From: Monosiga brevicollis MX1
Lineage: Eukaryota > Opisthokonta > Choanoflagellata > Craspedida > Salpingoecidae
DNA: 58,257 nucleotides
Assembly: GCF_000002865.3 (NCBI RefSeq)
Contig: NW_001865051.1
Location: forward strand, 927,808 to 986,064
Direction: 5' to 3'
Part shown: piece by piece, positions 4,894-40,508 of the stretch
Layout of the letters: the number at the start of each line of letters is the position of its first letter
How positions within the stretch are numbered: position 1 is the first letter of the stretch
The notes under the pieces: generated by a model
Seen by the model: the letters and a program-made list of their open reading frames with translations, nothing else
Told to the model about the DNA's origin: nothing
Databases searched by the model: none
Translations under genes and position numbers: made by a program

Positions 4894-7800
4894 ATGGCAG
4901 CCCGTCAAGTATGCCTTGGCGTGCTCGCCGCAACCCTGGCAATGGCGATGGCGACATCCACCTATCGTATCGGTGTCGTGCATAACAGTGAGTTGTATCC
5001 TTACGTGGCGCTTGGGAGGGTCAAGCTGCGGTCGTCCCGGCAGCGGTGGCGCATCGTCATGCACGCAACTTCCATCGCCTTACTTACCCGTTTGGTTTGA
5101 TTACTCACCACCATAGGCTACCAATCAGTTGCTGAACTCGATATGAAAGCCACCTTCGAATCCCTCGGCATCAACTACACCTTTGTCGTTGGAACCATGG
5201 GCGAGCTTCGCGAGGCTGTTCGCCTCAGTGAGGTCGACTTGATTTACAGCCAACCCGATCTCCTGACATGCTTGGACACCGAGTATGACGTTCGTCTCCT
5301 GGGCACCGTCTCTCGGATTGAGCGAGGTCGGTCTATCATGGCTCCTTGTGAATGATGAATTATAACGTATATCCGTCCACGCACTATACACCATATGATC
5401 TTGCAGGATGAAAGGCGCACTTCTCATCTCAATTCCAAATTCTGTCGCCTCATCTCTAGTTGGTGAAAGCCTGAGCGTGGCTGGCGGAGTCATCTTCACT
5501 CGCTTCGATGATCACATCTCCCATGTCACAGACATTACAGATCACGTGATTGGCGCCGTTAGCCCCGATTCCCTCTTTGGCTACATGGCCCAGCGTCGAG
5601 AGTTGCTTGATCAAGGCATTCAGCTCCTGCGAGTGGCCAAAGCCGTGCGTACAATGTGCTCCAACACGCCTTTTTTTTGGACAGCGCTCAACTTTTTTCC
5701 AAGAAAGCTTGCGCTTGTTTCTTGTGGTTGCGCCAAGACTCCAAGTTCACATTTTGCATACGTCTGTCCATACGCAGCTGAGCTTCGCTCAAAGTCACTA
5801 TCAAGTGGTCTACGACGTTCTTAGCGGTGTGGTTGACATTGGATTTGTGAAATCTGGTATCCTCGAGGGTGAGTTCCAGTGGTTCACGCAGCTGCCACGA
5901 GCACATTTGCACACGCGCGCGGAAGCTGACCGCGTTCCTGCCTAACACTTTGCTGCTTTTGTGCTTTTTTGAAAAACAAAACAAAAAACTCAGCCATGTC
6001 AGATCTAGGTCTTATCAAAATTGCCAACGTCAAGATCATCAATGAATTACGCGTCGAGATCCGTGAGGACGAACAGTACCCCTACCACATATCTACTGAA
6101 TTGTACCCTGGTCAGCCCCCCCCCGCCCCCTTTTTTTTATAATATTGTGGTGGTTGTTGTTGGTCACTTTCAAGCATTCTTGACATTCTAACATCCGACC
6201 ACTCGCATTTGGCCATGACACCAACTTGAGCAGAATGGGCTTTAGGTGCCGTCGCAAGCCTTGACACGCAGGCATGTATTTTTTTCAACTTCTTGTTCTG
6301 ATGAACACAAGGTTGACACATTCTTGATATCTTATTCGTTCTTGTGTGTGTCACGTTTGAACTCGGATGCAGGATGTTCGCGATCTTGCTCTCCAGCTGT
6401 ACAGTTTGAATCACACGCACTTTGAGGCACACGGTGATTCTGGGCTTGATTTTTGGGAACTGCCTCTGTCCAATCTTGAAGTTCACAACCTTTTGGTACG
6501 TTTGATGTCGCGCCACCTTTTGGGCTCTTGACACGTTTGTGGTTGCAGACACCTCTTCATGTTTTTTGAAACACTCCAACAGGAAGAGCTCTCGCTCGTG
6601 GTTGATAATTCAAGCGGTTGGAGTTGCGGTGAGCTAGCCAGTGATCTCTCTGGCTTGACTTGCCCCGATGGCTACAAAATGACCGCCAACACGACCTGCG
6701 GTGTCGAGGCCGGCTTTGTCTGTCCTGAGCGCGCCAACGTCACCTATCTTTGCGCGTGCAATCCCTGTGAGCCCATCTGCGGAAAGAATGAGGTTTTCGC
6801 CTCAGATGGCTCCTGTGACTGCCAATCGGGAACAATCAGAATAGGTTCTTCTTGTCAAAGCGTGGGTTTGGCTATTGCCCAAGTCGTTGCGCCTATCTTG
6901 GTGGCTCTGCTCATCCTCATTCTCTACTGCGCCCACCGCCAACGCCGCAAAGCCGACGGCATCTGGCAAATCAAAGCAGATGCTCTCATCTTTGACAACC
7001 CCCCTGATGTGCTTGGTGCCGGCTCTTTTGGCGTCGTTTTGGCTGCCAAGTATCGTGGCGAGCGAGTCGCCGTCAAGCGTGCCTTTGCACATAGCCGAAG
7101 CCGCGGCAAGTCCAAAGCGACTCAATCACGCTTCAAGCGCACAGCCACCTCGGGTTACTCGGAGACATTTGCTACAATGCAGGCCCGTGATCGGGCAGTC
7201 AAGGCCCGCCTTCGAGATTTTTTCGTCGATGCAGAAGCCAACGCCCACAACAGCTCTCGCGCTGTGGGTAAAGCAAGTCAAATTGGTTCCGAAAGCAACT
7301 CACGCCCACAAGTGCCATGGTACACTCGTATTTTTCACCCCACGGCGGGCACGCGCGCACGTAACCAGCTGATTCAAGAGATGCGCACCCTGAGTCGCCT
7401 GCAACATCCCAACATCACGCAAATGCGTGGTGCCGTCATGGAGTCAGGAATGGAGCCGCTGATGGTGCTGTAAGTATGAGTGTTCTTGTCTCAGACACAG
7501 CAGTTGCCAAACTTCAGATCGGGCGATCTTCCGCTGTGCAGCACTGAAAAGATCTTATCCACTTTTTCCTTGGTGTGACGTAGTGAGTACATGGAAATGG
7601 GCTCACTCTACTCGATGTTGCACAACGAGGCCATGAGCTTTGACGACGACTTCCGTTATGACGCCGTATTCGACATCATCAGTGGAATGCGCTATCTGCA
7701 CAGCAGCGAGTTTACTCACGGTGACCTCAAAGCCATGGTCAGTCAAAACCGATGAAACTTTTTTTTTTCTGGCTTGTTCATTGCGCAGTTTAAGCTCTTG

Positions 7801-9658
7801 ACAACCCGAACACGCATGAGCTTATTTTTCCTTTCAGCTTGTTACATGGCATCAGCTCACCATCGAAACTTGCCCGTGTTTTAGAACTGTCTAGTGAACG
7901 CCAAATTTCAAATCAAAGTAGCAGACTTTGGCATGGCAGCTCGTGTGAGCAGTCGGGGTCAGCGGGGCGGTACCTTGGCTTGGATGGCTCCTGGTATGCT
8001 GATTTGAGTCCAACCTCAAGTGTTTTGCATTTCTTTCTTTCAAATGCCAGCTTCTCATCATCTGATCTGGCTCTTGACAGAGGTTCTGATGGGAGGAGTC
8101 ATTACACAAGCCAGCGATGTGTACAGTTTTGGTGTGACGATGTTTGAGATTTTCTCTCGGGAAGACCCGTATGATGAGGCTGGACTAGACTCGCAAACGC
8201 TTGCCCAGCACATCATTCGCCGCAAACTACGTCCTGGCATTCCAGAGAACATGCCTCCCGAGTTCTCGGTGCTCATGAACGTAGGTTTCAAATCAGCCTA
8301 CGTGCAGCCTTCCAGCCCTCCTTACTGTCATGTGTACGGGCATCCAAACTTGCGATTGGTCTCATCTTTCGTCGTCCTGGTGTCTCTTGCATTGTAGGAG
8401 TGCCTTTTGGCCGACCCCGATACTCGCCCCACCTTCATTGAGCTGCTGCGTCGTACCGAGCCACTCGAGGGCAAGATGAAGGCCAGTTCGCGTAAGGGCA
8501 ACCCGGCCTTCCAGGACAACGCCTTACTGGAGCAAGTCTTCCCCAAACACATTGCAGCTGCCCTGCGCGAGGGTCGGCCCATCGGTGAGGTTCTGCGTTT
8601 GCTTCTAAGCATGTCAAGTCAATCGGAAGTGAACCAAGGGTCTTATCGTTTTTATTTTTTGGGGTGTGTGTGCAGAGCCGGAGCACCATGCCGAGGTGAC
8701 CATCTTCTTCTCGGACATTTGTGGCTTTACGGACATGAGCGCTACGCTGGAGCCGGTGCAGGTGTCCAACATGCTGGATCGCCTGTACACAAAGTTTGAT
8801 AAGCTGTGCGACCAGCACGGGCTGTACAAGATTGAGACGATTGGGGACGCGTACATGTGCGTGGGCAACCTGTTTACGCCTCAGCCGGATCACGCGGCGC
8901 GTGTGGCGCGGTTTGCGATGGATGCGATGGAAGCCGCCAATGCGATTCCGATTCTGGAGGACGAGCCGGATGGTGCCCACATTGACATTCGTGTGGGCTT
9001 CCACAGCGGACCTGTTGTGAGCAACGTGGTGGGGACGTTGACGCCGCGATTCTGTCTGTTTGGATCGACAGTGAATTGTGCATCGCGGATGGAGAGCAAC
9101 AGCGTGCGGAACTGCATTCACATGTCGCCGGAGGCGGCAGCGCTGGTGCAGAAGCAAGATGTGTCGCTGAATGTGATTCGTCGTGACCCGATGGTGACGA
9201 TCAAGGGCCTGGGCAAGATGCAGACGTACTGGCTCAATAAGGAGCCCAAGGCCGACGATGTGGAAGCGTCTGCACTTGAGCCACCGCGTCGCAAGCGCCT
9301 GAGTAGCACTGCGTCCATTCGTACGGCACGCATTTCTGGCGTGTCTCACCAACATCATCTGACTGAGAGTGCGTCGAAGCGCGCCTCAATGGACGCCGAC
9401 CTGATCCTTGGGTCACAGGCAAAGAATGTGCCTCAGCGGGCTCGCGTGATGTTTGACGATGTGGCGATTGATATGGTGCCCGTCAATGCGATGGAAGCGG
9501 CATCCCCTGATAAAGCCGAAGAGCGTGCTGACACCCCACAGACTTCCAACACGGATATTGACACGGCCACGGACTTGGGCGATGTACCGATGCCCGATGC
9601 CAACGGAACTACTGACGATCACGGAACGGGCAAGACGGTGGCTGACAGCGTCGTCTGA
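4894..9658 (+). CDS. Receptor guanylyl cyclase A (first and most divergent array member)
   Basis: Thirteen exons: 4894-4987, 5117-5326, 5460-5644, 5778-5868, 5994-6110, 6234-6271, 6373-6495, 6583-7469, 7584-7737, 7885-7993, 8081-8280, 8398-8584, 8676-9658; 1,125 residues. In order they encode a leader peptide, a PhnD/TtrS-like binding domain (exons 2-7), a Cys-rich stalk and one membrane helix (exon 8), a kinase domain (exons 8-12) and a guanylyl cyclase domain (exon 13). The kinase has GAGSFG, VAVK, HGDLK...N and DFG. The cyclase has both metal aspartates (FSDICGF, IGDAYM), the guanine-selecting Glu and Cys (ETIGD, FCLFG) and the Asn/Arg pair (VNCASRM). By family knowledge it converts GTP to cGMP at the plasma membrane. 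Its ectodomain differs most from the others (for example REAVRLSEVDLIYSQPDLL). Intron 6 has a GC donor (gcatgt). The tail carries VMFDDVAIDM and ends DSVV. The start was chosen for its clean leader peptide and its match to exon 1 of the other copies. Confidence 0.92.
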
Positions 9659-10329
9659 TGAGCCCGCCTTCATTAGAGATAGAGAGAGAGAGAGAGAGAG
9701 AGACCTTTCCTAAGCTTCTACATCAATGATTTTACTTGTTGGTTCAAGTCGTTGTGATTGTTTCATTCATGTTAAGTGTGTGTGTGTGTGTGTGTGGTGT
9801 TTTGTGCCTTCCACCAGGCCTGATTGCCGTTTTTCAGTTGTCTCGTCTGAGTTGTGTGTTGTACGCACGTGATTACACTCTTTCGCCAGCCACGTTGTGA
9901 GATCTCTGATCACATCTGCGTGCATGTGCTTGGCAACCAAGCAATTCGAAGCTGAAGCTGCTCTGCACTGGTCGAGTGGGTGATGGCTCGTGACATCGGC
10001 GCAGGGCAGCTGCAAGCAGCACATGCCGTCAAAGGACGGAGGGGGGCAACATTATCACAATGTCATTATCGTTAAGGAATAATAGGTGCTAAACGCACTT
10101 TTCACATGATAAAATTTGACAGGTCATGTCGAGGTTTGGTGAATGTTGGGTGAACTCTGTCAGGGGAAGGCTGCAATCGTGTTGCCCCATGGGAGGGGCC
10201 CGCGTTGGGGTTCCTTGAGCCAAACTCCATGTGTGGGTCAAAGAAGCCTACAACAACAGAATCCATTGTGGGTGCGAGCCGTTGCAGGGTTTTCTTATTG
10301 TGATTTTTTTGAAACACACACTTTGTGCT

Positions 10330-10476
10330 GTCTGTCTCTCTGGCTCTCTGGCTCTCTGGCTCTCTGGCTCTCTGGCTCTCTGGCTCTCTGGCTCTCTTGT
10401 GTGTGTGTGTGTGTGTGTGTGCCTGCCTGTGCTGTGTGTGTGTGTGTGTGCCTGTGTGCCTGCCTGCCTGCCTGCC

Positions 10477-10527
<51 letters not shown>
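10330..10527. repeat. Compound microsatellite: TCTCTGGC, GT, GCCT and GTCT units
   Basis: An eight-base unit (tctctggc) is repeated about seven or eight times, followed by GT runs, then gcct and gtct tetranucleotide runs up to about 10527. Its long open frames in several phases are artefacts of the repeat. Confidence 0.92.
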
Positions 10528-10976: not shown

Positions 10977-13900
10977 ATGGGGTCGTGGGCGGTGGCGCTC
11001 GTCGCCATCTTCATGGTGGCGGTGGTCACGGAAGCGTCGCTTGTCATCCCCCGTGTGGGCCTGATTAAAAATGGTGCGAACCACTTGACCTGAATTCGTT
11101 GACAAGCACACCTGTGACTGTCGCCATGCCCGCCTTCTGACCCGCTTGTTCTCTAGACATGTATGACCAAGCTCTTCACGATATCAATGCCACCATGTCT
11201 CTTCTTGGCGCCACAGCCGTCTACGTCACTGGTTCAGCGCCTGAAATTCAAGAATATGCTCGACTCGGCAAGATCGATTTGGCCTTTACGCCCAGCCACA
11301 TCTTTGGTTGTCTGTCGGCCGAGGTTGAAGCCGCACCCATTTGTTCCATCGTTCGCCGTTACAACTGTAAGTAACACCAACATCTTCTGCTGCAGTGGTT
11401 CCATTCCTCGTGCAATGGCCATTTTTGTCCATTCTGACTGACTTATTTGCGGACCCGCTTGCATGCAGCCGTCGATGTTTCAATGGCTGGAGGTGTCATC
11501 TTTACCAAGTATGGCAGCGACATTTCATCTCTAGACGACATCCCTGGCAAGATTATCGCAGCCGTTGGCCGCGACTCTCTTTTCGGCTATGCTGCCCAGC
11601 GTCACGAACTCCGTCGTCACGGCATTGAGATAGTCACAAGCTGCCCTCAGGTGCGAAAGCCCCCGTTAACAGAATTTAGCAACTGGACATGCTCACATTT
11701 TTTTCTTCTGGCTTCTCGTGCAGATTATATTCGCGGGAAATAATTACCGAGTGGTTTTTGATGTTTTGAACGGGGTTGCTGATGTCGGCTTCGTGCAGAG
11801 CGGCGTCATCGAAGGTAGAGGCCGTGTCGTGACTAAACGTGCTGCAAAGTCACACATTTTAACCCAAGTCTTCTTAATATTATTGTTATTGCTCCCTTCA
11901 TGCCCACTCCTCAATCTTTAGCAATGACTACGCTGGGCATCATATTCGTCGCGGACGTCAAGTTTCTCAATGAATACAACCACTACAACAAGCTTGGTGT
12001 GGCGTTCCCGTTTCGTTCCTCCACGAATCTTTACAGCGGTAAGCCAGCCACCCAGCATATCGCTCGCAACGCCTGTCGACGACGGACAGTGTCTCACACC
12101 CATGGTGATTGCTGTGTCAACCCATCAACCTAGATTGGGTGCTGTCGTCCATCACGGATCTCAGCGAAGGAGTGCGTCACGCTTCAGTTAATCCCCTGAG
12201 CAACACCATGATCACAGGTGTCCTCTCAACTCATCTAATTTGATTTGTACTTTCAATAGGAAGTCCATGGACCTGTCTCAGCCGTGTTTTCTTTGAATCA
12301 TACGCAATTTTCAAGCGCAGGCGCGTCTTCCATCAGCTACTGGCGCACGCCCCTTTCTACCGTCAAGGTCGTGGACATGCTGGTAAGTGACAAGCGTGTT
12401 TTGCGTGACTTTGGCTCGGACATGACTAGGTCTTTGCCCCATTGATAACTCATGCCCATTCCCCTCTTGCAGCGAGAATTGTCGTTACTGAAAAGCTCAG
12501 ACGACGGTACATTGCAATGCGGCAACATGGGCGCTGAGCTGGAGCATTTTGTGTGTCCCGAAGGTTTCAAGCGCAAAGCAGACATTTCATGCGACAACAC
12601 CAAGGGGTACAGCTGCCCCACGGCCGAGAACGTGAGCTACCAGTGCCTTTGCACGCCATGTGTACCTGTCTGTCAAGCCAACGAGATTTACAGCGATGGA
12701 TCCTGCGACTGCGACTCGGGTTATGTCATGTCCGGTGGAGCATGTGTGCCCTTTGGTATCCTCATTGCCCAAGTTTTGGTGCCCGTGATCATTGTTGTCA
12801 TTCTCCTGATTCTCTACAACAATCATCGTCAACGCCTCAAAACGGACGGCATTTGGCAAATCGACGCCAAAGATATCATCCTTGATCACCCTCCGGAGGT
12901 TTTGGGATCAGGCTCCTTTGGTGTGGTGCTGGCAGCCAAATATCGTGGCCAAGCCGTTGCAGTCAAGCGAGCATATGTCAGCAAGCACGGCAAGAACCTT
13001 AGCAAGAGCAAGTCATCAAGCAGACAAGGTCACGCAACAGCGAGCAACACTTTTCAGCTCACCATGGGCAAGAATACGATGAAGCAAAAAGAGCAGCTTG
13101 CCCGAGATCGCATGCGCGCCTTCTTCGTTGAAGCCGAGGCAGCCGTTGCCAACACGGGGGCCAACCATGCATCCAGCTCCAAATCGGGCCGCACCGTCAA
13201 TGGCACCGAGGTGCCTTGGTGGGACAAGTTGTTTGGTCCATCAGCCGAGACGCGTGCGCGCCGCCAGCTCTTCCGCGAGATGCGTTTACTCAGCCGTATG
13301 CAACACGACAGCATTTGTCGAATGCTGGGCGCTGTCATTGAGTCTGGTATGGAGCCTCTTATGGTGTTGTAAGTCAAGCCTCAAGCAACCCGATGGATTT
13401 TAGCAGGCGAGCTGCATGTATTGGTTGTTCCCATCATCTCACCGTGTTATTTTGTCCTTCTCACATCTCAGAGAGTACATGGAGATGGGCTCGCTCTACA
13501 ACATGCTGCACAATGAAGCCATGGAACTGGACGATGAATTTCGCTATAACGCCTTGCATGATATCACCAATGGCATGCGCTATCTGCACAACTCCGACTT
13601 GGTCCATGGTGACCTGAAGGCTTTGGTCCGTGCCAGCTCGGTTGATCCAGCACAATGTTACACGCCACTAACCCCTATGCTTGCTTGCTGCTGTAGAATT
13701 GCTTGGTAGATAGCAAGTTTCATGTCAAGGTGTCCGACTTTGGCATGGCAGGGTTTGCTTCAGAACATAGTCAGCGCGGTGGCACTCTCGCCTGGATGGC
13801 ACCCGGTATGTATGATGCTCCGTACAATGCTATGCTTAAGCCTGGGAAGGAGCTTGGACCTTACACAGGGCTGCCGCTCGATGTTTCTTCAGAGCTACTT

Positions 13901-14418
13901 CGGGGTGATTCTTGCAGCTTTGCCAGTGATGTCTACAGCTTTGGCATTGTCATGTTTGAAATATTTTCTCGCGAGGACCCCTACGAGGATTTGAATTATG
14001 ATACAGCAATGTTGGTGCAAAACATTCTTGGTCGCAAGTTGCGACCCACAGCTCCTGCCAACATGCCATCGGAACTGGCCGTTCTCATGAGTGTAAGTGG
14101 TCTGAGCAATTAGCGATCATTTTTTGAAAAGGGCAAGATCTGATCGACGTGCGTTTGCACCATTGATCAAATGAAAATAGGAAGCGCTGTCCGCTGATCC
14201 TGACACGCGACCGACGTTTGTGGAGTTGCTCCGGCGCATTGAGCCGATGGAGGGGAAGATGAAGGCCAACTCGCGCAAGGGCGGGTTCCAGGACAACGCG
14301 TTGTTGGAGCAGGTGTTTCCCAAGCACATTGCGGCGGCGCTGCGCGAGGGTCGCACAGTTGGTACGTTGGACTCGTGTGTGTTGCTGTCTGGAGGTCTGG
14401 GGCCTTGAGTTTGGACTC

Positions 14419-14460
<42 letters not shown>

Positions 14461-15475
14461 GATTGTTTCGAGCTATGCACTCACACAGTGTTTGTTTCTT
14501 TGTCTTTGTCTTGTGTCGTGTTGCATAGAGCCGGAGCACCATGCCGAGGTGACCATCTTCTTCTCGGACATTTGTGGCTTTACGGACATGAGCGCTACGC
14601 TGGAGCCGGTGCAGGTGTCCAACATGCTGGATCGCCTGTACACGGTGTTTGACAAGCTGTGCGACAAGCACGGGCTGTACAAGATTGAGACGATTGGGGA
14701 TGCGTACATGTGCGTGGGCAACCTGTTTACGCCCCAGCCGGATCATGCGGCGCGTGTGGCACGATTTGCGATGGATGCGCTGGCGGGAGCCAATGCGATT
14801 CCGATCCTGGAGGACAAACCGGATGGTGACCACATCAACATTCGTGTGGGCTTCCACAGCGGACCCGTTGTAAGCAATGTGGTGGGGACGCTGACGCCGC
14901 GATTCTGCCTGTTTGGATCGACAGTGAATTGTGCGTCGCGAATGGAGAGCAACAGTGTGCGGAACTGCATTCACATGTCACCGGAGGCGGCGGCGCTGGT
15001 GCAGAAGCAAGATGTGTCGCTGAATGTGATACGTCGTGATCCTGTTGTGACGATCAAGGGCCTGGGCAAGATGCAGACGTACTGGCTTGGGCACCCTCCC
15101 AAGTCTGACGATGTGGAGGCCACGGCAAAGATGCCACGCACTAAATCCCGCGTCAGTGCGCGATCTGGCCGCACCTCCCGAGGATCATTTCTGCGCGACT
15201 TTCCCCTCCTGCCCGCGCCATCGTTGAGTGGTCTTGACAACACAGACGCTTCTTCCTCTCACGTCATGTTCGATCAAGTTGCTATCGACATGGCGCTTGG
15301 TTCTTCCCCAGATGAGGCCGAGGGTGATGATGCGGACAACACTGTTCTAAATGCTGCAGCCACCAAATCGTCCTCGATCCGTGACCTTTGTGACAGTGGG
15401 CATCCCAGCGAGGGAGCCTACCTTGAGAAGCATTTGCCTCCCATCTTTGAGCCTACTCAAGATTCTTGTGTTTAA
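10977..15475 (+). CDS. Receptor guanylyl cyclase B
   Basis: Thirteen exons: 10977-11073, 11157-11366, 11469-11650, 11724-11814, 11922-12038, 12134-12171, 12260-12382, 12473-13368, 13472-13625, 13697-13805, 13893-14092, 14181-14361, 14529-15475; 1,114 residues. A leader peptide (MGSWAVALVAIFMVAVV) opens the PhnD/TtrS-like ectodomain, with the GGVIFT, DSLFGYAAQR and VVFDVLNGVADVGFV segments typical of these proteins. The stalk holds about a dozen cysteines. The kinase keeps GSGSFG, VAVK, HGDLKALN and DFG; the cyclase keeps all metal, purine and transition-state residues. Intron 12 contains a GT microsatellite (14421-14456). The tail carries VMFDQVAIDM and ends DSCV. Exon 12 and the ends of intron 12 resemble those of receptor C, a sign of sequence exchange. 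The truncated copy just downstream derives from the 3' end of a gene like this one. Confidence 0.93.
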
Positions 15476-17839: not shown

Positions 17840-20800
17840 ATGGGTCGAACTGTGGCCAAGGGGCTGTTGGCCCTGCTCTTGGTGGTGGCGGCAGCCATGG
17901 CTCAAAATGCAACCATGCCCACCCTTGAGCCCACCACCCCGAGCACGGACATGAGCCTGGCCACAAGTGAGAGTAACGTCACTACTGCCGCTGCACCATA
18001 CTACCTCATCTACTATCGCGTTGGTCTCGTTGATAGCTGTAAGTCGCGCGCAACGCTCTGCAACTCCAGCTTGCGTGTCCCTCCCTCTATTGTCTCACTG
18101 CCTTGGGCTGTACCAATTTTCCCCAGACGAGTTGGAACAGGCCAAGCAAGAGCTTTTCATGACATTTCACATGCTGCGACTTGGTGTTATTTTCAAAATT
18201 GGTTCTTCGGATGAAATCATGGAGTTGTCTCGTGTGGGCAAAGTCGAAGTGGTCTACTCGTCGAGCGAATTCTACAGCTGCCTCTCTGCCCAGTTGAACA
18301 TCCCACCCGTTGCCAGCGTGGTTCGCCGTCAAAATGGTGAGCGCGAACCGTCGCAACGAGTCCCTCACCTGCTTGCCAGCATTCTGCTCATTTTGAATAA
18401 TAACGACATAGGTGTTGACACGCCTTACGCAAGTGGTGTCATGTTCACGTCTTCAAAGCATGAGAACATGGAATTGGCTGACATGAAGGGCACTACTCTC
18501 GCTGCCGTGAGCCGGGATTCTTTCCTCGGATTTCAAGCTNNNNNNNNNNNNNNNNNNNNNNNNNNNNNNNNNNNNNNNNNNNNNNNNNNTTCCGGGCCAT
18601 GGCCAAAAACCCCGCCTCCCCCCCCCCCCCCCCCCCCCCCCCACCCTTTTTTTTTTTTTTTGTCTCGCTAGATCATCTTCACGCGAAGCAGTGAGCAAGT
18701 CGTGTGGGAGGTGCTCAATGGCACTGTTGACGTTGGCTTTTTGCCCTCGGGCGTGATCGAAAGTATGTGACAACATGGGCCTGCTACTCATCTCGGTGCT
18801 CATCTTTGAGTATGATCCCATCAATGAGGGACTGGGTGCTCAATTGGCTTGTCTCGCGTAGAAATGTTCTGAGGGAAAGATTACACACTCCAAATGTGCG
18901 TACCTGAACGAGTACAATCATCGCTTGCGTGATGGCACAGCCTATCCCTACCGTTCCTCCACGTCAATGTATGGAGGTACGCACCCATCATTTTCTCTCA
19001 GATCCAGATTGGTTCCATCGTTGGCTTGAGCAAGCTCTGATGGCCATTGTATTTCTCAACGCACAGACTGGGTCATGAGCGCTGTCAAAGAAATGTCGGA
19101 AACTGTGAGTGCGCTGCGTACTTGCAGCATCATTGCTTTTACCCTTTGCAGTGTCTATGAACGATAGCTAATGCATACTCTGCATCTTTTGAAAATAGGC
19201 TGTGCATACTGCTATCTCTGCTCTTTTCACTCTCGACAATTCCCACTTTACGAGCGCGGGCATCCCCTCAATCAGCTACTGGCGTCCGGCCCTGGCCTTT
19301 GCAGATACGCTCGCAATGCTGGTATGAATTGGCTCGCGTTGGCTTAATATGAAAGCTCTTGATCTTTGTTATCTTGCTCACCCCCACTGGTTGTGCTTAA
19401 CTAACCTTGTGTGAAAACAAAAGGCCGACCTGAACATCTTGGTCACAAATGGACTGGAGCAGACTTGCACAAGTCTTAGCCCAAACATTAGTGCTCTGGT
19501 GTGCCCAGTGGGCTACAAGCACACCAAAGACATCACATGCGAAGACTCCGATGTGTATGATTGTCCAGTGCGTGAAGGCTTCGAGTACGAGTGCGTCTGT
19601 GCACCATGCGAGCCCATCTGCGGATCTTCCGAAGTTTACGATGAAGACGATGATAGTTGCGACTGTCAGTCGGGGCACATCCCTGGCATTTACGGCTGCA
19701 TACCACTGGGCGTGTTCGCTGCTCAAGTTTTAATCCCGGTTGCTGTATTGATTGGCCTCTTGGTCTTTTTTCTCATTCATCGACAACATCTCAAGGCCGA
19801 TGGCATCTGGCAAATCAAGCCAAGTGAGTTGGTTCTCGAGCAACCTGCTGAGGTTCTTGGCTCTGGCTCTTTTGGAGTGGTTCTTGCTGCTAAGATGCGT
19901 GGGCAGACAGTTGCTGTCAAACGCGCCTACGTGAGCAAGCACAGCAAGTACTCAACTCAAACAAAAAGCTCTTTGAAGACGGGCACGGCGTCCAATGCCT
20001 TCGGATTACCTCTTCGACTCAACCGCCATAGCCCCAAGGACAGAGATCGTGTTGCTCGACAACAGATGCGACACCTTTTCATTGAAGCCGAGGCGTCAAC
20101 AAAGAAGAACAACTCAATTCATGGATCAAGTCTCAAGTCGAGCCGAGCCACAACCATGGCGGCAAAGCCCTGGTATGAGCGGCTCTTTGGTCCCTCAGAT
20201 GAGACGAGGGCTCGCCGTCAGCTGTTCCGTGAAATGCGTCTGTTGAGCCGTATGCAGCACGACAATATTTGCCGCATGCTAGGTGCAGTTGTTGAATCTG
20301 GCATTGAGCCACTCATGGTTTTGTAAGTCGGCAAATGCGGAGAACGGCTCGTTCTTGCCTCTTTACATATATTCTCTGACGACGTTTTGCGTCCTGCCTT
20401 GATTCCAAACTCTTAGGGAGTACATGGAGATGGGATCTTTGTATAGCATGTTGCACAATGAAGCCATGGAGCTGGACGACGAGTTCCGCTACAACGCAAT
20501 CTGTGATATCTCTACGGGCATGCGCTACTTGCACAACTCAGATCTCGTTCATGGTGATTTGAAGACTTTGGTAGGTACACATGTGCACTGCCTTGGTGTA
20601 ATACTCTTCAAGTCTACAGAGAATGTACTCACGACTTCTGGGCATATTTCCAATGATGTGTATCAGAATTGCTTAGTGGATGGCAAGTTCCATGTCAAGG
20701 TGTCTGATTTTGGCATGGCCAGCTTTGCCTCTGAAAACACGCAGCAAGGAGGCACTCTTGCATGGATGGCGCCTGGTACGTCGGGCAACACAAACCCAAA

Positions 20801-26900: not shown

Positions 26901-28535
26901 TTGCTGTCAAGGATGCGATCAGCGGACCTGAAGACGCCTGTTCTCACATGGCCCATCATTGACAGAATTGTTGCAGGGGGACGTGACCTCGTTTGCGAGT
27001 GATGTCTATAGCTTTGGCGTCGTCATGTTTGAGATTTTTGCCCGTGAGGACCCATATGAAGACACCGACTTTGACTCAGAGACCCTTGCTCAGAATGTTG
27101 TGCGCCGAAAACTTCGCCCATCGGCACCATCAAATATGCCCCCGGAGTTTAGCGTCTTGATGAACGTATGTTTGCACGCGCGTCGACGGCTGGAATCACT
27201 GGACACTGGATATATTTGCGGTACACACGCGCTCATCTTTTACACCAATGCATCAATAGGAATCCTTGGCTGCAGACCCTGACACACGACCCACGTTTGT
27301 GGAATTGTTGCGGCGCATTGAGCCCCTCGAAGGCAAGATGAAGATCAATGCGCGCAAGGGCAATGCTATGCTGCAAGACAACGCCCTGTTGGAACAAGTC
27401 TTCCCCAAACACATTGCCACGGCCCTCCGCGAGGGCCGAACTATCGGTACGCGTCCTTGCTTCTTTCGCAGCACATGCTGACGAAGGCGTGCCCTCAGAG
27501 CATGACAAGCATCTCAACCCCACACACATTCACCTCACTGAGTCTTTTCGCTTTTCTGTTCCGTTCCTTTGCACAGAGCCGGAGCACCATGCCGAGGTGA
27601 CCATCTTCTTCTCGGACATTTGTGGCTTTACGGACATGAGCGCTACCCTGGAGCCGGTGCAGGTGTCCAACATGCTGGATCGCCTGTACACGGTGTTTGA
27701 CAAGCTGTGCGACAAGCACGGACTGTACAAGATTGAGACGATTGGGGACGCGTACATGTGCGTGGGCAACCTGTTTACGCCTCAGCCGGATCATGCGGCG
27801 CGTGTGGCGCGGTTTGCGATGGATGCGCTGGCGGGGGCCAATGCGATTCCGATTCTGGAGGACGAGCCGGATGGCGACCACATTGACATTCGTGTGGGCT
27901 TCCACAGCGGACCTGTTGTGAGCAACGTGGTGGGGACGTTGACGCCGCGATTCTGTCTGTTTGGATCGACAGTGAATTGTGCATCGCGGATGGAGAGCAA
28001 CAGTGTGCGGAACTGCATTCACATGTCACCGGAGGCGGCAGCGCTGGTGCAGAAGCAAGATGTGTCGCTGAACGTGATTCGTCGTGACCCTGTTGTGACG
28101 ATCAAGGGCCTGGGCAAGATGCAGACGTATTGGTTGGGGCATGCACCGTCTACTCAAGAGGCCGAGGCGGCGAAACCGGCACGGAAGTCACTTTTGAGCG
28201 TGGCTTCGCGTCGTAGTTCGCGTCGTGCTTCCATGCTTCAGGATACCAACGCAGCCGCATCCGTCCGGGCTCGCATCCCTGAAACGCCTCATGTCATCTT
28301 CGATGAAGTGGCCGTGGACATGGATGCGGGGTGGCAGGATGAGGATGAGGCTCTTGCTAGGTCCAACACTGCTTCGGAAACGAACACCGATGACGGCGAA
28401 ACGCAACTGTCCTCTCTATCTGAGTCGGCCACAACCGTTAGCATTATGCCTGATGAACCCAAGCTGAACCTGACTCAGCTTGCCCCTGTCTCCGCAGACC
28501 AAAACGTCAAAGTCATGGGTGACTCAGCTGTTTAG
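23947..28535 (+). CDS. Receptor guanylyl cyclase D (reference copy)
   Basis: Thirteen exons: 23947-24130, 24219-24428, 24535-24719, 24820-24910, 24988-25104, 25197-25234, 25331-25453, 25540-26444, 26547-26700, 26786-26894, 26966-27165, 27260-27446, 27577-28535; 1,153 residues with frame kept throughout. Leader peptide about 1-34; PhnD/TtrS-like binding domain about 55-320 (GGVMFA, DSLLGFQAQRQEL, VVWEVLNGVADVGFV, PFRCSTDLYG); Cys-rich stalk about 330-408; membrane helix about 410-432; kinase about 450-775 with GSGSFG, Lys481, Asp665 in HGDLK, Asn670 and DFG at 683-685; a basic, Ser-rich insert of about 90 residues between strand 3 and helix C; cyclase about 836-1030 with both metal aspartates and the Glu/Cys pair for GTP. 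The tail has SSRRASM (a PKA/PKG-type site) and VIFDEVAVDM and ends DSAV. By family knowledge it makes cGMP on ligand binding; ligand and kinase substrate are unknown. Intron 12 is almost identical to that of receptor E. Confidence 0.95.
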
Positions 28536-29913: not shown

Positions 29914-32900
29914 ATGCTGGCCCGCATTGCCCTGGTGGTGATCGTGGCAACAGCCATTGTAGCTGCCCAAAATTCAACCGTCACCACGACCATGGCACCG
30001 GTGACAAAGCAGCCTTTTCGCCTCGGTCTGCTTGATAACTGTAAGTCTTGCCCCAAGCACAATGCCACGATCATTTGAAATTTCTCGCCTTGCACCTCGC
30101 GCCTCACCGGGGTCTTGTCCCGCGTTCCATAGATGCGCGCACGCGTGCTGTCGAGGAAATGAAAGTCACCATGGAGTTGCTGGGCCTCGACGTTGATATC
30201 ATCGTCGCGCCACACGCTACCATCCGAGACCTCGCCCGCATTGGCAAGCTAGACGCCACCTACACACCCAGCGATCTGTTCGTGTGCATGGCCACCGAGT
30301 ATGGTGTCACTCCTTTGGCAGGCGTCGTGCGCCGCCTCAACGGTCCGTTTGCGGGAGGACTCTTCTTTGCAAACTCAGATGATTCTCTTCACTAGGGTTC
30401 ACCCCTTGCATGCCATGATCGCCACTGACACAGATGTGGATGTGGCCTATTCGGGTGGCGTCATGTTTACCTCTATTCACAGCAGTGTCAAGAGCATTGA
30501 CGACTTCAAAGGCAGGGTCTTGGCTGCCATCGGGCGCGATTCGCTTCTCGGGTTTCAAGCTCAACGCCATGAGCTCTGGAAGCAAGGCCTCAACGTCTAT
30601 GAGCTGTTCCCCCAGGTACACACCTTGGCTGGAAGATAGGATTTCTTGACAATATTAGGGGTGGCACTCGCCCTGCTGAGCTTTGACTCAAAGTTTAATC
30701 TTCTTGTTTTATTTTTAGGTCATTTACACCGGCGATGCCGAACAAGTCGTTTGGGAGGTTCTCAACGGCACTGCGGACGTGGGATTTGTCACAAGTGGCG
30801 TGATCGATGGTATGTTAGCCACTGGTAGACTCGCCCAAACTGAAAAAGCCCAGGAGCCTGCTCGAAAAACCTACTTTTGATGAAACCTTCTGGTTGCACA
30901 GCCATGGTAAAGCAGGGTCTTGTGTTCACGCCAGACATCAACTTTCTCAACGAGTACAACCATCGTTTTGCTAGTGGCGAAGCTTACCCTTTTCGTTGCT
31001 CCACGGGTCTATTTGGTGGTAAGCACAGAACGTCTTTGCGCTGAAATCTTCTTGTGGTTGTATCAACTTGACCTGCACCTTACCAATGCATATCTACTGC
31101 TCATCCTAGAATGGGTCTTGGCGTCCGTGGGTAACTTGCCCGAGCAGGCAAGTACAGGCGTGTGGCCTCGTCTTTGAGCATGTGTGCACCTCAGAACCAG
31201 CCCTTGAAGCCAGCATCTCTGACCGGCCTTGTTGGATGTGAGTAGCTGGTTCACACCGCAGTGTCGGATCTTTTCGAGTTTAACGCAAGTCATTTCGAAG
31301 CGCTCGGCTTGAACGGAATTAGCTATTTCCGCCCACCCCTCGCGTACATCAATACGCTGGGCTTGCTGGTGAGGTCTTGGCCATGTCTTTGGCTTTGTTC
31401 TTGTTGTCTCGATAACCAAAGCGTTGATAAGACAAACACACTGGTCGATCAGCCATAGTGTTCTCACAATGCACACGTACTGTGGATACCTCCTTGGCAG
31501 GAGGATTTGACAATCATGGTCGAGGATGAGTCATACCAAAAAAGCTGCGAAAAAATGAGCTCGAGCACGGCAGACGTGGTCTGCGCGTTTGGTTGGACTC
31601 AAGCCAAAGACGTTTCCTGTGACACCACAAGCCTGTACTCCTGCCCTGAGCGCGAGGGTTTCAACTACACTTGTGTTTGTGAACCTTGTGTCCAGATTTG
31701 TCCCTCCGACGAAACCTACACCATGGACGGAACGTGCCGTTGCAAAACCGGCTTCGTGCGAGTCGGCGCCTCTTGTTTCGAGCTTGGCGTCTTCATTGTG
31801 CAAGTCATTGTTCCCATTGCACTGCTGGTGGGTCTTTTGATTGTGTATCTTCTCTACCGCCAGCGCCTCAAAGCCGACGGCATTTGGCAAGTTGATCCCA
31901 GTGAGCTGGTCATTGAACAGCCAGCTGAGGTCTTGGGTTCAGGATCCTTTGGTGTTGTGCTGGCTGCCAAGCTCCGCGGGCAAATGGTGGCTGTCAAGCG
32001 TGCTTATGTCAGCAAGCACGGCAAGTTTCGAACCTCCAGCAAGACCACCGAAAGCATCATGAAGAGTGGTACCAATAACGCGTATGGCTTGCCCTTTCGC
32101 TCCCACCGACAACAAACGGGCAAAAGCAAGGAGCGCACGGCCCGGCAACTCGTGCGCAACGTGTTTGCAGAAGCCGAGGCCGTGGCCGAAAAGCTTGGAA
32201 GCACCCACGGCTCGACCAATCGATCGGGCCGGGCAACGACCATGTCTCGACGCCCTTGGTATGAGCGTTTGTTCGGCCCTTCTGCTGAGACGCGCGCTCG
32301 GCGCCAGCTCTTTCGTGAGATGCGCTTGCTGAGCCGCATGCAGCATGACAACATTTGTCGCATGATGGGCGCCGTTGTCGAGTCGGGCATGGAGCCTTTG
32401 ATGATTCTGTACGTGCTAAGGACCGCGTGGGGGATGGGGTTGAAGCCATTCCTGTTTGCAATCTCATATGCTTGGCGCGTGCTGTTGTGGCAGGGAGTAC
32501 ATGGAAATGGGCTCACTATACAGCATGCTTCACAACGAGGCCATGGATCTGGACGATGACTTTCGCTACAACGCACTTCATGACATTACCAGTGGAATGC
32601 GATATCTGCACAACGCAGATCTTATTCACGGCGATTTGAAGGCTTTGGTAAGTGCGTGCCACCTCGACTCTTGTTTGAGGGCATAGACGAAGGCTCACGA
32701 CCAGAACACACCGCAGAATTGCTTGGTGGACAGCAAATTCCACGTCAAAGTGTCCGACTTTGGCATGGCAGGCTTCGCCTCGGAGCATAGCCAGCGCGGC
32801 GGCACACTTTCATGGATGGCACCCGGTCAGTAGCTCGACTTTTTTTCCGCTTCTCGCTTCAGAATTGCGGTATAGCGCTTCCGGCTGATATAAATAAATA

Positions 32901-34456
32901 CGTGCGCATGCGGTATATATGCAGAGCTGCTCCAGGGCGGCATTACCACCTTTGAAAGTGATGTTTACAGCTTTGGCATCGTCATGTTTGAGATTTTTGC
33001 TCGCGAAGATCCCTATGAGGATGTGGAGTATGACACACAGATGCTTGTGCAAAACATCGTGCGCCGAAAGCTACGCCCAACGCCACCTTCCAGCATGCCT
33101 CCGGAGTTTGCGGTCCTCATGAATGTAGGTTTGCAAGAGGTCTTCCTTCGAATGCCATGTTCTTGATCTTAGCCTGGCACTGGCATGATCTCACCCCTCT
33201 GTTGAATTCGTAGGAGGCATTGGCTTCCGACCCAGACACCCGGCCCACCTTTATCGAGCTGATGCGTCGCATTGAACCTCTCGAGGGCAAGATGAAGGTC
33301 AATGCGCGCAAGGGTGCCTTTCAGGACAACGCCCTGTTGGAACAAGTCTTCCCCAAACACATTGCCACGGCCCTCCGCGAGGGCCGAACTATCGGTACGC
33401 GCCCTTGCTTCTTTCGCAGCACATGCTGACGAAGGCGTGCCCTCAGAGCATGACAAGCATCTCGACCCCACACACATTCACCTCACTGAGTCTTTTCGCT
33501 TTTCTGTTCCGTTCCTTTGCACAGAGCCGGAGCACCATGCCGAGGTGACCATCTTCTTCTCGGACATTTGTGGCTTTACGGACATGAGCGCTACCCTGGA
33601 GCCGGTGCAGGTGTCCAACATGCTGGATCGCCTGTACACGGTGTTTGACAAGCTGTGCGACAAGCACGGACTGTACAAGATTGAGACGATTGGGGACGCG
33701 TACATGTGCGTGGGCAACCTGTTTACGCCCCAGCCGGATCATGCGGCGCGTGTGGCGCGGTTTGCGATGGATGCGCTGGCGGGGGCCAATGCGATTCCGA
33801 TCCTGGAGGACGAGCCGGATGGCGACCACATTGACATTCGTGTGGGCTTCCACAGCGGGCCCGTTGTGAGCAATGTGGTGGGGACGCTGACGCCGCGATT
33901 CTGTCTGTTTGGATCCACTGTGAACTGTGCGTCGCGGATGGAGAGCAACAGCGTGCGGAACTGCATTCACATGTCACCGGAGGCGGCGGCGCTGGTGCAG
34001 AAGCAGGATGTGTCGCTGAACGTGATTCGTCGTGATCCTGTTGTGACGATCAAGGGCCTGGGCAAGATGCAGACGTACTGGCTAGGACATGCACCGCCGA
34101 GTGAAGCAAGCATGGAAGTGCCAGTGAATCGCAAATCGCGCAAGTCACAATTCAGTGTGGCTTCGATGCGCAGTCTGGCCTCGGTTCCCAACTCGCGCAG
34201 GCCTTCAAACATTCGGGATTTGGTGGTCCCTCCTTCGCCCATGGCCCCGCAGGTTATGTTTGACAGCGTGGCTGTGGATATTATTTCCGACGAGCCTTTG
34301 GTGAAGGAACAACAACATCTCATCGGCTCACCCCTTTCCAAATCAGCTGTGACGCTCAAGATTGATGACGATAGCAGCTGCGCCAAGTCGACGGATACGG
34401 ACCTCACCGCAGCTAGCGTGGTGGATATTGAGCTCGTTATGGACAGCAGCGTCTAG
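29914..34456 (+). CDS. Receptor guanylyl cyclase E
   Basis: Thirteen exons: 29914-30040, 30133-30342, 30434-30615, 30719-30809, 30902-31018, 31110-31147, 31246-31368, 31501-32408, 32494-32647, 32717-32825, 32925-33124, 33214-33394, 33525-34456; 1,123 residues. The ATG at 29914 opens a clean leader (MLARIALVVIVATAIVAAQ); an in-frame ATG at 29815 would bury it and match no other copy. Domain order is as in receptor D: PhnD/TtrS-like ectodomain, Cys-rich stalk, membrane helix (FIVQVIVPIALLVGLLIVYL), kinase (GSGSFG, VAVK, HGDLKALN, DFG) and guanylyl cyclase with all catalytic residues. Intron 6 uses a GC donor (gcaagt). Intron 12 (130 bases) differs from that of receptor D at only two positions. 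The tail has SVASMRS and VMFDSVAVDI and ends DSSV. Confidence 0.94.
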
Positions 34457-35865: not shown

Positions 35866-35911
<46 letters not shown>

Positions 35912-35986
35912 CTATTACTTCTACAACGACAACAACAACACGCTTCTCTCTCGCCGCCGTTTCTTCATCTTGCGTGAACCGGGGCT
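34457..35986. other. Intergenic region between receptors E and F
   Basis: About 1.5 kb with no gene recognised. It holds C and G homopolymers (about 35013-35026 and 35516-35524), a CTA trinucleotide run at about 35868-35911 close to receptor F, and a GGCATTTTT string at 35824-35832. Two tRNA T-loop-like strings (near 35644 and 35718) have no surrounding cloverleaf. Confidence 0.55.
35868..35911. repeat. CTA trinucleotide microsatellite
   Basis: About 14 copies of cta, roughly 75 bases before the start codon of receptor F, so probably in its 5' untranslated region or core promoter. Length changes here could affect expression; this is an inference. Confidence 0.9.
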
Positions 35987-38900
35987 ATGACCTCACGTCA
36001 CCTGCTGATGGCCTTTGCCATCGCGGCCCTCGTTGGGCCTTTGGAAGCCGCCCTGATTTCGGTCAACGGCTCACGGCCCCGTATTGGCATGGTCGATAAC
36101 TGTGCGTCATCTCCTGCCCACTGCTACCCACTGCCAATCATCGGCTCAATCAGCTGACGCTGCTGATGTTGCTTTTTTTCTCCTCCTTCCCTCTATTCAG
36201 TTGGCTACCACATTGCACGCAAGGACATCGATGCCACTATGTATCTTCTCAACATCGAACCCAAATACGTGATTGGCACTGCCACAGAAGTCCGTGAGCT
36301 GGCCCGTGTGGGCAAGATTGATCTTGCCTTTACACCAAGCGATCTCTTTGGCTGCATGGCTGCTGAGTACAACATTGCCCCTGTGGCAACCATTGTGCGC
36401 CGATTCAATGGTACGCCTTTTCTTTTTTTGGGGCTTTTTTGTTTTTAATGATTTATTATGTATTCCACTCTTTTGATTCTTGCCCATAACTCGGCTCGTG
36501 TGGATTCAGGCGTGGATGTGTCCGACTCTGCTGGCGTCATCTTCACTCGCCACGAGCTCAAGAACATCAAAACAATCGAAGACATCAAGGGCAAGACGGT
36601 GGCTGCTATGGGCTTTGATTCCCTCTTTGGATTTCAAGCCCAGCGCTACGAAATGTACCGTGCTGGCATGATACTCTTCGACGAGGTCCCCGAGGTACGC
36701 AACGCAGTCTAACGATCCTCAAGCTGCTCTGCTGCACACCCGCATCCTTTCCTCATGGCCTCTTTCTCGGTCTGTGAATGATTAGGTTATCTTTACTGGA
36801 AATTTTTTTCAAGTCGTCTGGGAGGTCCTCAATGGCACCGCCGACGTTGGTTTTGTGCAGAGTGGTATCATCGAAGGTAAGAACAAAAAAAAAAATTATG
36901 AGCAGACCGATTATGCTTATCTCACGTTGATCACGTTCTTGTCTTAGAAATGGTCGAGGCCGGTCTGATTCACACGCCTGATATTCGATTTATTAATGAG
37001 TACAACCATCGCCTGCGCAATGGCGTCCCATATCCGTTTCGTTGCTCCACTGATCTCTACGGCGGTAAGGCGTACTTTGCATCTCGCAGCCGGGGCACAA
37101 GAACAAACTCACTCTCATAGAGGCTGCGTTGTTTTCTCATTATGAACCGATGCGCTTGCTACGAATCTCTTAGACTGGGTCCTGTCTGCCATTACCCATT
37201 TGAGTGAAAATGTAAGACTGCCGGTTTGCTCAGCTTCTGATTTTGAGGTGTGGGCACATCTACTGGTGATGGTAGCAAAGGCCTGACAACCTTGCCTTGG
37301 GCTCCAATCTCGCTTGTTCTTTGCAGGATATTCAAGGTCCTGTGGCATCCCTCTTTCAGTTCAACAACTCGTTTTATAAGAAGGCCAACGCTGCCACACT
37401 CAGCTATTGGCGCCCTCCCCTGGCCTACATGAACACCATTGATCTGCTTGTACGTCCTCCTTGTCGAATTTATCAGCTGCTTTTGTCTGCATTGCAGTCT
37501 TACAGCTGTCCCAATTTTGATGGTGCCCACAGGAGGACTTGAGCTTGTTGCAAACCGTCGACGGCGTCAAGAATTGTGCCAGCATGAACTCCGACTCAAC
37601 TGACATTGTCTGTCCATTTGGTTTCAAGCAGGCCAAAGACATGTCCTGCAGTGCCGCCAAGGGTTATTCATGCCCCTATCGTCCCGGCTACAACTACACC
37701 TGCGTGTGCAGGCCCTGCATCAGAGCTTGTGGAGAGTTGGAGACGTACTCGATCGATGGCTCTTGTACTTGCAGCAACGGTGCCATCAAGGTCATTGGCG
37801 TCTGCCAACCACTCGGCGTCTTAGCCGCCATCATCCTGGGCCCCGTCATTGTCTTTGTTGCCGTTCTGATCTTGTACCTGGTTCACCGCCAACATCTCAA
37901 GGCAGATGGCATCTGGCAAATCAATCCCAGCGAGCTCATTCTGGAACAACCTCCCGAGGTGCTGGGAGCTGGCTCCTACGGTGTGGTCCTTGCCGCCAAG
38001 CTGCGTGGCCAAATGGTGGCCGTCAAGCGTGCTTATGTTAACAAAAGCAACAAGTATCGCCATGCATCACGCACCAACACCACCAATGCCAGCACCTCGT
38101 CTGGGTTCCATTTTGGCGGACACAACCAATCTCGGGCTCGCGATCGCAGTGCGCGTTTGCGCATGCGAAACTTTTTCATCGAAGCCGAAGCTGCCGCTGC
38201 CGAGTTTAGCAGCCATGGTCACTCTGCTGCGCGATCCACCCACGCGACTCGCGCCGCCAAGCCGTGGTGGGTGCGCATTTTTGGTCCTTCCGCCGAGACA
38301 CGTGCGCGTCGCCAACTTTTCCGTGAGATGCGCCTGCTGAGCCGCATGCAGCATGACAACATCTGCCGCATGCTGGGCGCCGTTGTCGAATCAGGCATGG
38401 AGCCTCTGATGGTGCTGTGAGTCTGCAAATGGCCTCAACAATGCTTCGCATGCCGCTGATTGTCGATCTCATTCTGTCAGAAATCCTCATCTTTTGCTTA
38501 CGTCTTGCCCATCACAGGGAATGCATGGAGATGGGCTCTCTCTACAACATGCTCCACAACGAAGCCATGGATTTGGATGACGACTTCCGCTATAACGCCC
38601 TTCACGACATTATTAGTGGCATGCGTTACTTGCACAATTCCGACCTGGTTCACGGTGACCTCAAGGCCTTGGTTCGTTGGTCCGCTTGAGTGATCGTTGG
38701 CACTGCATTTGTCAAAGCAAAGCAACCATGTCCTTCCCTCGCCTATCCTTGCTAATCGTACATGCACCTGCCCTATATTACAGAACTGCTTGGTGGACGG
38801 CAAATTCCATGTGAAGGTGTCTGACTTTGGCATGGCCGCCTTTTCGGATGAACACTCCCAGCAGGGTGGCACCCTGGCCTGGATGGCGCCTGGTTCGTGT

Positions 38901-40508
38901 CATGCTCAATTGCCGCTTTTCCTGTAGCGTAACCATAGTTGCCATGTACACACCTAACCTCCTGTCTTCTTTTGACTACGGGGCTTTTGTGTGTTTATAG
39001 AGCTTTTGCAGGGTGGCAGCACCTCATTTGCCAGCGACGTGTACAGCTTTGGCATTGTCATGTTTGAGGTCTTTGCTCGCGCGGATCCCTATGATGATGT
39101 GGAGTACGACTCGGAGACCCTGGTACAAAACATTCTGCGCCGCAAGCTTCGCCCTGCTGCCCCACCGAACATGCCCAACGAATATGCCGTCTTGATGAAC
39201 GTGCGTGAAACTTGCTCGAGGCTACTTTGACGGCGAAGTGCCAAACGCACCTGAAGCTACATCTCAACTTACAAGGGGTTTGTGTTTCGGGCGTATCTTT
39301 GAGTAGGAAGCTCTCTCGACGGATTCCGAAACGCGTCCTACATTTATCGAGCTGCTCCGCCGCACTGAGCCTCTCGAGGGCAAAATGAAGGCCAATTCTC
39401 GCAAGACACATGCCACCCTCCAAGACGATGCGCTCCTGGAGCAGGTCTTCCCCAAGCACATTGCAGCAGCCTTGCGCGAGGGGCGCACTGTCGGTATGTG
39501 TCTTTAAAAGTCCTTTGTGTACCCGTGTCGTTGCCTTTCACACTCTTGATATCTATGCAAACCTTGCTCTCATGCGTTGGGTGCCTTATCACAGAGCCGG
39601 AACATCATGCCGAGGTGACCATCTTTTTCTCGGACATTTGTGGCTTTACGGACATGAGCGCTACGCTGGAGCCGGTACAGGTGTCTAACATGCTCAACCG
39701 TCTCTACACCGTGTTTGATGCCCTTTGCGACAAGCACGGACTGTACAAGATTGAGACGATTGGGGACGCGTACATGTGCGTGGGCAACCTGTTTACGACA
39801 CAGCTGGATCATGCAGCGCGGGTGGCGCGGTTTGCAATGGACGCTATGGAAGCCGCCAACGCCATTCCGATTCTGGAGGACGAGCCGGATGGCGACCACA
39901 TTGACATTCGTGTGGGCTTCCACAGCGGACCTGTTGTGAGCAATGTGGTGGGAACGCTGACGCCGCGATTCTGTCTGTTCGGATCGACTGTGAACTGTGC
40001 GTCGCGAATGGAGAGCAACAGCGTGCGAAACTGCATTCACATTTCACCGGAGGCGGCGGCGTTGGTGCAGAAGCAGGATGCTTCACTCAAAGTGATCAAG
40101 CGCAACCCGATCGTGACGATCAAGGGCTTGGGCAAGATGCAGACGTTCTGGCTGAACCAGGCCCCCGACACGATGGAGGCTGAGGCTGCAGCCAAGAACA
40201 AGCGCCGCTCACACGTGAGTGCCTTTTCGGTGGCCAGTATGGCCAGTCGCGTCTCCAGCGTGCAATACCTGAAGGAAGCGGACGATAGCAAGATTGACTC
40301 TGTGAGCGTAATTCTCGACAATGTGTCGAGCAAAAACCGCCGTCGATCTTCGGCCACTTCGGCACGCGCCAAACCCCGCGCAAGTGTGGGCTCGCGCAAC
40401 CTTGTGCGCTTTGAAGATGTCACCATTGACATCGACGGGTCCAAGGAAGCACCCGAAAGCAAGGTGCTGCCTGAAGTCAATGAGCTCGGCGAGACGAGCA
40501 TGATTTAA
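35987..40508 (+). CDS. Receptor guanylyl cyclase F (last array member)
   Basis: Thirteen exons: 35987-36101, 36201-36410, 36510-36694, 36786-36876, 36948-37064, 37174-37211, 37327-37449, 37533-38416, 38518-38671, 38784-38892, 39001-39200, 39307-39493, 39595-40508; 1,108 residues. The leader is MTSRHLLMAFAIAALVGPLEA. The PhnD/TtrS-like domain (GVIFTRHELKN, FDSLFGFQAQRYEM, VVWEVLNGTADVGFV), Cys-rich stalk, membrane helix and kinase (GAGSYG with Tyr in the glycine loop, VAVK, HGDLKALN, DFG) follow. The cyclase differs from the others at several places (LNRLYTVFDALCDKHG, DASLKVIKRNPIV), so it has escaped part of the homogenisation. It still has both metal aspartates, the Glu/Cys pair and the Asn/Arg pair. 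The tail has SVASMASR and VRFEDVTIDI and ends TSMI, a different but still S-x-hydrophobic C-terminus. Confidence 0.94.

Follow-up and report, generated by a model that had tools for sequence, protein, structure and literature searches.

The window analysed here, a stretch of 58,257 nucleotides of the choanoflagellate Monosiga brevicollis MX1, a unicellular relative of animals, carries a tandem cluster of six receptor guanylyl cyclase genes that probably belong to a chemoreceptor family, with diversified ligands feeding one cyclic GMP (cGMP) output. It lies on contig C44, the genome being 39.47 Mb in size, and one Munc18 exon of this genome is identical to PDB 2XHE at 47/47 residues. The genes, A–F, occupy positions 4894–40508 on the + strand, all contain introns and share one plan, in which a signal sequence, a type II periplasmic-binding (PBP2) sensor, a Cys-rich region, a transmembrane (TM) helix, a kinase, a class III guanylyl cyclase and a C-tail follow one another. 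The sequence itself shows this architecture, the homologies and motifs of all three domains (sensor, kinase and cyclase), the divergence of the sensors and the homogenisation of the cyclases. The original prediction, made from the letters of the window, had proposed six receptor guanylyl cyclases with a PhnD/TtrS-type ectodomain of ~260 residues; six such models were recovered, the domain size was right, and the ends that it gave for the cluster coincide exactly with the first ATG of A and the last stop of F.

Spliced models were obtained with a home-made aligner guided by paralogues, and the reference model (gene D) was corrected against splice sites common to the copies. Rechecking of the frames gave no internal stop in any of the six models. 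All six begin with an in-frame ATG followed by a hydrophobic stretch, from which the signal sequence is predicted. Exon lengths of 38, 154, 109 and 200 are common to all models and those of 91 and 117 to five of the six. Residual errors affect the modelled C-tails of A, B and F, the end of the E sensor and the region around the gap in C. Delimited by the ATG in frame with the first modelled exon and by the stop in the cyclase frame, gene A spans 4894..9658 (sensor ~4969-6495, cyclase exon from 8676), B 10977..15475 (sensor ~11055-12394, cyclase exon from 14529), C 17840..22406 (sensor ~18014-19321, cyclase exon from 21502), D 23947..28535, E 29914..34456 (sensor ~30016-31367, its end placed by eye, cyclase exon from 33525) and F 35987..40508 (sensor ~36083-37449, cyclase exon from 39595). 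One sensor intron has an apparent GC donor instead of GT, which reads GCAAGT in E (31148) and GCATGT in A (6272).

Profile searches identify the ectodomain as a periplasmic-binding domain of type II. The Pfam family PF12974 is matched by the sensor parts of A (E = 1.3e-23), E (8.8e-20), F (1.7e-19) and B (9.2e-19) and by the whole protein D (1.4e-17), and the profile check suggested with the original prediction thus yields matches of 1e-17 to 1e-23 in five genes. The sensor of the sixth, C, is broken by an assembly gap of 50 N at 18540-18589; its conserved segments are still readable, and its two pieces, searched alone, match PF12974 only at 0.0035 and 0.056, below the cut-off. The curated cut-off of 27 bits is passed by A, B, D, E and F and by the paralogous sensors outside the window described below (C13, the C23 minus gene, C23 copies 2 and 3, and C49), and in ten receptor domains scanned whole PF12974 is the sole Pfam family above its cut-off for the sensor. 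An ectodomain of the ANF-receptor (type I) kind, which had been named among the results that would overturn the assignment, is rejected, as it gives no Pfam match at E<=1 in D at full length or in the sensors of A, B, E and F. Relatives of the sensor in the PDB, found by sequence, are PtxB (profile match 1.8e-7), ArrX (3.3e-6) and a phosphonate-binding protein; a PHROGs search of the D sensor returned nothing. The motif strings first proposed for the domain mark real conserved segments, although their exactness was overstated: GGVMFT is exact only in E and reads GGVMFA in D, GGVIFT in A and B, AGVIFT in F and SGVMFT in C, VVWEVLNGxADVGFV and PFRCST occur unaltered in D, E and F and as close variants in A, B and C. 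Given the E-values, the shared exon lengths and four further genes of the same architecture, neither the sensor homology nor the shared plan is attributable to chance.

The reference gene D encodes 1157 modelled residues in 13 exons (23947-24130, 24219-24428, 24535-24719, 24820-24910, 24988-25104, 25197-25234, 25331-25465, 25540-26444, 26547-26700, 26786-26894, 26966-27165, 27260-27446 and 27577-28532). Its PF12974 ectodomain (24106..25465; last few residues uncertain) is spread over seven exons and is followed by the Cys-rich juxtamembrane region with the single TM helix (25540..25881, helix ~25825-25881), the kinase (25942..27319) and the guanylyl cyclase (27446..28136), the latter lying nearly entirely in the exon from 27577. 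In Pfam the order is PF12974, PK_Tyr_Ser-Thr (residues 583-795) and Guanylate_cyc (residues 839-1025), and the other models repeat it. One strong hydrophobic helix separates sensor and kinase in each gene; two weaker ones are seen in B, one of them in a doubtful tail. The D kinase carries GSGSFGVV, VAVK, HGDLKALN, DFG and APE, with a variable insert of ~90 residues after VAVK and the N-lobe match ahead of it, and the corresponding motifs (GxGS[FY]GVV, VAVK, HGDLKxxN, DFG, APE) are present in all six genes. The insert (26060-26330 in D, with equivalents in the other genes) covers ~93 alignment columns at a mean identity of 41% (28 pairs, eight single-sensor genes). The cyclase motifs FSDICGF, KIETIGDA and RFCLFGSTVN are likewise found in 6/6, and through them the Glu and Cys specificity pair and the Asp, Asn and Arg, residues that we take to serve GTP/metal binding and specificity.

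Among solved chains, the closest to the intracellular part is GC-A, with kinase and cyclase colinear (E = 9.2e-78). The single-pass plan, this colinearity and the guanylyl-cyclase motifs are shared with such animal receptor guanylyl cyclases, which differ in their ANF (type I) ectodomain and, in the GC-A chain, in having HGN and DYG where all six kinases of the window have HGD and DFG. The linker between kinase and cyclase is short and retains LLEQVFPKHIATAL; its alignment with GC-A is gapped at the signalling-helix position. The kinase-homology domain of animal receptor cyclases appears inactive in the accessible part of PMC1592074. By the catalytic motifs tested, the Monosiga domain would not be classed as an inactive kinase-homology domain.

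Comparison with bacterial proteins supports, at the level of sequence, a TtrS-type rather than a free PhnD-type sensor. The NCBIfam model TtrS is matched by A (1.7e-18), C23 copy 3 (5.6e-13), C13 (7.6e-8), D (6.4e-7), B (1.2e-6), F (4e-6) and E (1.5e-5), and ranks first among the models for A and for C23 copy 3; the cut-off of the TtrS equivalog NF040750 (750 bits, for a whole sensor kinase) is not reached, the best score being 66.5 bits from the sensor domain only. With a profile built from six receptor domains, bacterial relatives were detected in Gallionella, Desulfobulbaceae and Sulfuricurvum; in these three genomes, four frames of 794-1028 aa (sensors) score 117-143 bits, and four of 306-315 aa, which we regard as free binding proteins, score 25-41 bits. 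Searched singly, nine receptor domains reach best scores of 66-96 bits (medians 49-74) against 22 bacterial sensors and <=23.5 bits against four free binding proteins or fragments, with the sensors preferred in all nine cases. Among 200 genomes of one phylum, 24 contain a receptor-profile match at E<=1e-12, and 25 of the 26 matches lie in frames of >=455 aa. The 23 bacterial relatives scanned (L044 repeats L039) all match PF12974, accompanied by histidine kinase in 12, GGDEF in 6, EAL in 3 and SpoIIE in 1; Guanylate_cyc is absent from the table of these 23, some of whose frames are cut by locus ends. Receptor and bacterial sensor domains, including the ST-LYPEW region, align along their whole length. 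In a midpoint-rooted tree, the nine receptor domains included group in a single clade (98/95) next to the 22 bacterial sensors. Gene C, the partial C23 copy 1, L044 and L020-L022 (repeats of L039 and of L017-L019) were left out of this tree; the free protein L024 was included and L025 was not, and one of the free-protein rows is on a very long branch.

With four members outside the window added to the six inside it, the family numbers at least ten genes. The four are a C23 + strand gene (L009), C13 (L011), a C23 minus gene (L013) and, on C49, a divergent gene (L010, sensor 8.8e-10). The C23 + strand gene (L009:741-8672) has three tandem binding domains, followed by one TM helix, a kinase and a cyclase; between the binding domains lie Cys-rich and possibly Ig-like stretches, the Ig-like assignment being a weak one (DUF5001, E 0.07). 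Its copy 1 of the binding domain is partly modelled and gave no PF12974 match in its frame. A C34 frame (L012:3572-5578, minus) matches PF12974 at E 1e-6 and was rejected as a receptor, there being no Pfam kinase or cyclase match in the frame; the edge of that locus holds 2399 bases of N. For the C48 cyclase (L014), no sensor was found by the spliced aligner.

Among eight single-sensor genes, with C excluded from the sensor means, the sensor averages 48.3% identity (21 pairs), the kinase core 81% and the cyclase 94.4% (28 pairs for either). Synonymous divergence (pS) of the cyclase is 0.083-0.203 among A–E (10 pairs) and 0.31-0.40 for F versus A–E. It reaches 0.57-0.73 when C13 or the C23 minus gene is one of the pair, and 0.57-0.68 when a window copy is paired with an off-cluster copy; pairwise values for the sensor and the kinase core are 0.68-0.91. 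The E sensor is nearest to that of C13 (77.9%), yet the cyclases of E, C and D have one and the same protein sequence. As the low synonymous divergence of the cyclases is confined to the cluster, the data suggest that gene conversion homogenises this output module. In D a probable conversion tract (27411..28110, +) is 91-100% identical to E per 80-column window and includes the intron 27447-27576 at 99-100%, whereas the preceding exon is 70-85% identical and the downstream sequence 79%, then <=59%. Equivalents of the tract lie over the cyclase exon in A, B, C and E, with the intron included in the D–E pair.

These features point to a mechanism in which a small ligand would close the two lobes of the binding domain, a receptor dimer would rearrange and carry the change along its stem and helix, the kinase would relay, permit or add a signal, and the activated cyclase would produce cGMP. 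Different pockets may confer different ligand specificities, all leading into one output that gene conversion would keep uniform inside the cluster. In the available text of PMC5700983, PtxB binds phosphite through an S-T-S-H motif, and in that of PMC5408782, TtrS likely binds tetrathionate via its PhnD-like domain. In the receptors the phosphite motif reads S-L-[LF] with its His mostly lost; the first Ser of the pocket is kept in 18/22 bacterial sensors and in seven of nine readable receptor domains. Because pocket residues differ from those of the bacterial sensors, the receptors probably sense something other than the TtrS/PtxB ligands, possibly several, and ligands may differ among the copies too. 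The sensor itself was probably acquired from a bacterial membrane sensor. A fuller version, which we put forward tentatively and hold to fall somewhat short of probable, has a TtrS-type bacterial sensor mounted on a kinase-guanylyl cyclase chassis whose kinase may still be active, which could give each receptor two outputs; the set would evolve as a repertoire does, with pockets that diverge and conversion homogenising the cGMP module.

Several observations weigh against this account. Under NCBIfam, PhnD or its subfamily outscores TtrS for D, E, F and C13, and marginally for B, and with the best models thus split these profiles alone do not decide the branch; closer kinship with free PhnD-type proteins is disfavoured by score, in a comparison for which the 22 bacterial sensors came from the receptor-profile search, a biased draw, and PtxB and ArrX entered as fragments. 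Synonymous sites of the sensor are near saturation, and mis-assembly could produce the conversion signal, which comes from one assembly. The pocket His of 18/22 bacterial sensors is present in one of ten receptor domains, which show eight different residues there (among window copies only A, which has the highest TtrS score, retains it), and the Arg of 22/22 bacterial sensors is K, Q or T in 7/7 receptors, a count outside which the C23 copies stand (copy 3 retains Arg, by eye). The pocket-His column is, moreover, unexceptional, 32 of 259 columns being at least as variable. Such losses would be expected if the ectodomain kept its fold and bound no small molecule, serving as a dimerisation or protein-binding module whose divergence reflects relaxed constraint. 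We consider this improbable, as many columns conserved in bacteria are unchanged in seven receptors (e.g. G183, D200, S214, G217, D262, G264, P311, S315, T316, L318 and W322) and the modelled sensors are free of stops. That sensor and kinase-cyclase exons are separate genes joined by the models would accord with models drawn from genomic DNA only by a home-made, paralogue-guided aligner; it is scarcely credible when the order and spacing recur six times and one open frame of 1024 residues in the C23 paralogue (L009:4282-7353) spans the sensor (PF12974 at 100-299), TM helix and kinase (723-940), by which the sensor-kinase fusion rests on more than predicted splicing.

The history of the domain and the originality of the plan are also open to other explanations. 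Vertical descent of an old eukaryotic or holozoan sensor is unlikely, though a serious contender: the receptor clade sits on a long branch (0.77) and is weakly placed among the bacterial rows, in a sample with no other eukaryote, and six introns split the D sensor. Against this stand the full-length alignment with the bacterial sensor subfamily and the position of the receptors within it in the tree as drawn. The horizontal origin raised at the outset would be compatible with the tree, in which the receptors lie beside bacterial sensors with a weak attachment. It is rather unlikely that the genes are a choanoflagellate version of the amoebozoan kinase-cyclase receptors, sharing a plan that is not new. 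Such receptors are described, in the accessible parts of the respective papers, as a set of 67 nucleotidyl cyclases in Acanthamoeba, with an extracellular domain, one TM helix and the cyclase between two kinases, an arrangement also ascribed to giant viruses (PMC4053784), and as a kinase-cyclase family of 43 in Physarum (PMC4758236). Transmembrane kinase and cyclase are thus common to both groups, but as far as those accounts go the amoebozoan cyclase is flanked by two kinases, whereas D has one, N-terminal of the cyclase, and shows no match to a kinase in the C-tail at E<=0.1. GC-A is, furthermore, the best kinase-cyclase match among solved chains, with no amoebal receptor noticed in that list. 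On viral contigs the sensor scan confirmed no match; the cyclase scan gave 36 loci, with frames measured for 23, and the five examined in Pfam encode CHASE2, GAF/histidine-kinase/receiver or bare cyclase proteins, none of them with a eukaryotic-type kinase. Some amoebal and giant-virus kinase-cyclase proteins carry a different type II binding domain.

With kinase-cyclase receptors in print for Acanthamoeba and Physarum, the plan is not a new category, and the claim that this architecture is undescribed holds in the narrower sense that no description of it was recognised in the open-access papers searched, subscription papers being mostly outside the search. An automatic Pfam annotation of the public M. 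brevicollis genome presumably exists. The bacterial TtrS-type sensors (TtrS and its PBP-GGDEF-EAL relatives) have an ectodomain homologous throughout and differ in their outputs and in the pocket His and Arg mostly changed in Monosiga. PhnD, PtxB and ArrX have the PF12974-type domain in common with the receptors and are binding proteins, not membrane receptors. Venus kinase receptors, as described in the sources available, resemble the family in placing a Venus-flytrap ectodomain on a receptor kinase, and differ in that this ectodomain is near class C GPCRs (G protein-coupled receptors) and the kinase is a tyrosine kinase. To our knowledge, Venus kinase receptors have no cyclase.

The family suggests a home-made set of chemical detectors and offers concrete candidates for the chemosensory receptors of choanoflagellates, which are incompletely known according to the part of PMC10770216 available. 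There, apical constriction in Choanoeca flexa also seems to involve cGMP, and a behavioural output of the receptors is therefore plausible. The genes would provide an instance, outside animals, of receptor guanylyl cyclases with another binding fold, and the HGD and DFG of their kinase, at the positions of HGN and DYG in GC-A, bear on the origin of the animal pseudokinase. The contrast between diverging sensors and homogenised cyclases would make the cluster a clear example of receptors evolving by modules.

Outside the receptor genes, the window contains a second 50-base run of N (41450-41499) and frames with matches to a SET domain (51724-52680, minus; 3.5e-19), JmjC_2 (54690-55583; 1.1e-5) and the TNFR Cys-rich family (56782-57711; 1.1e-10).

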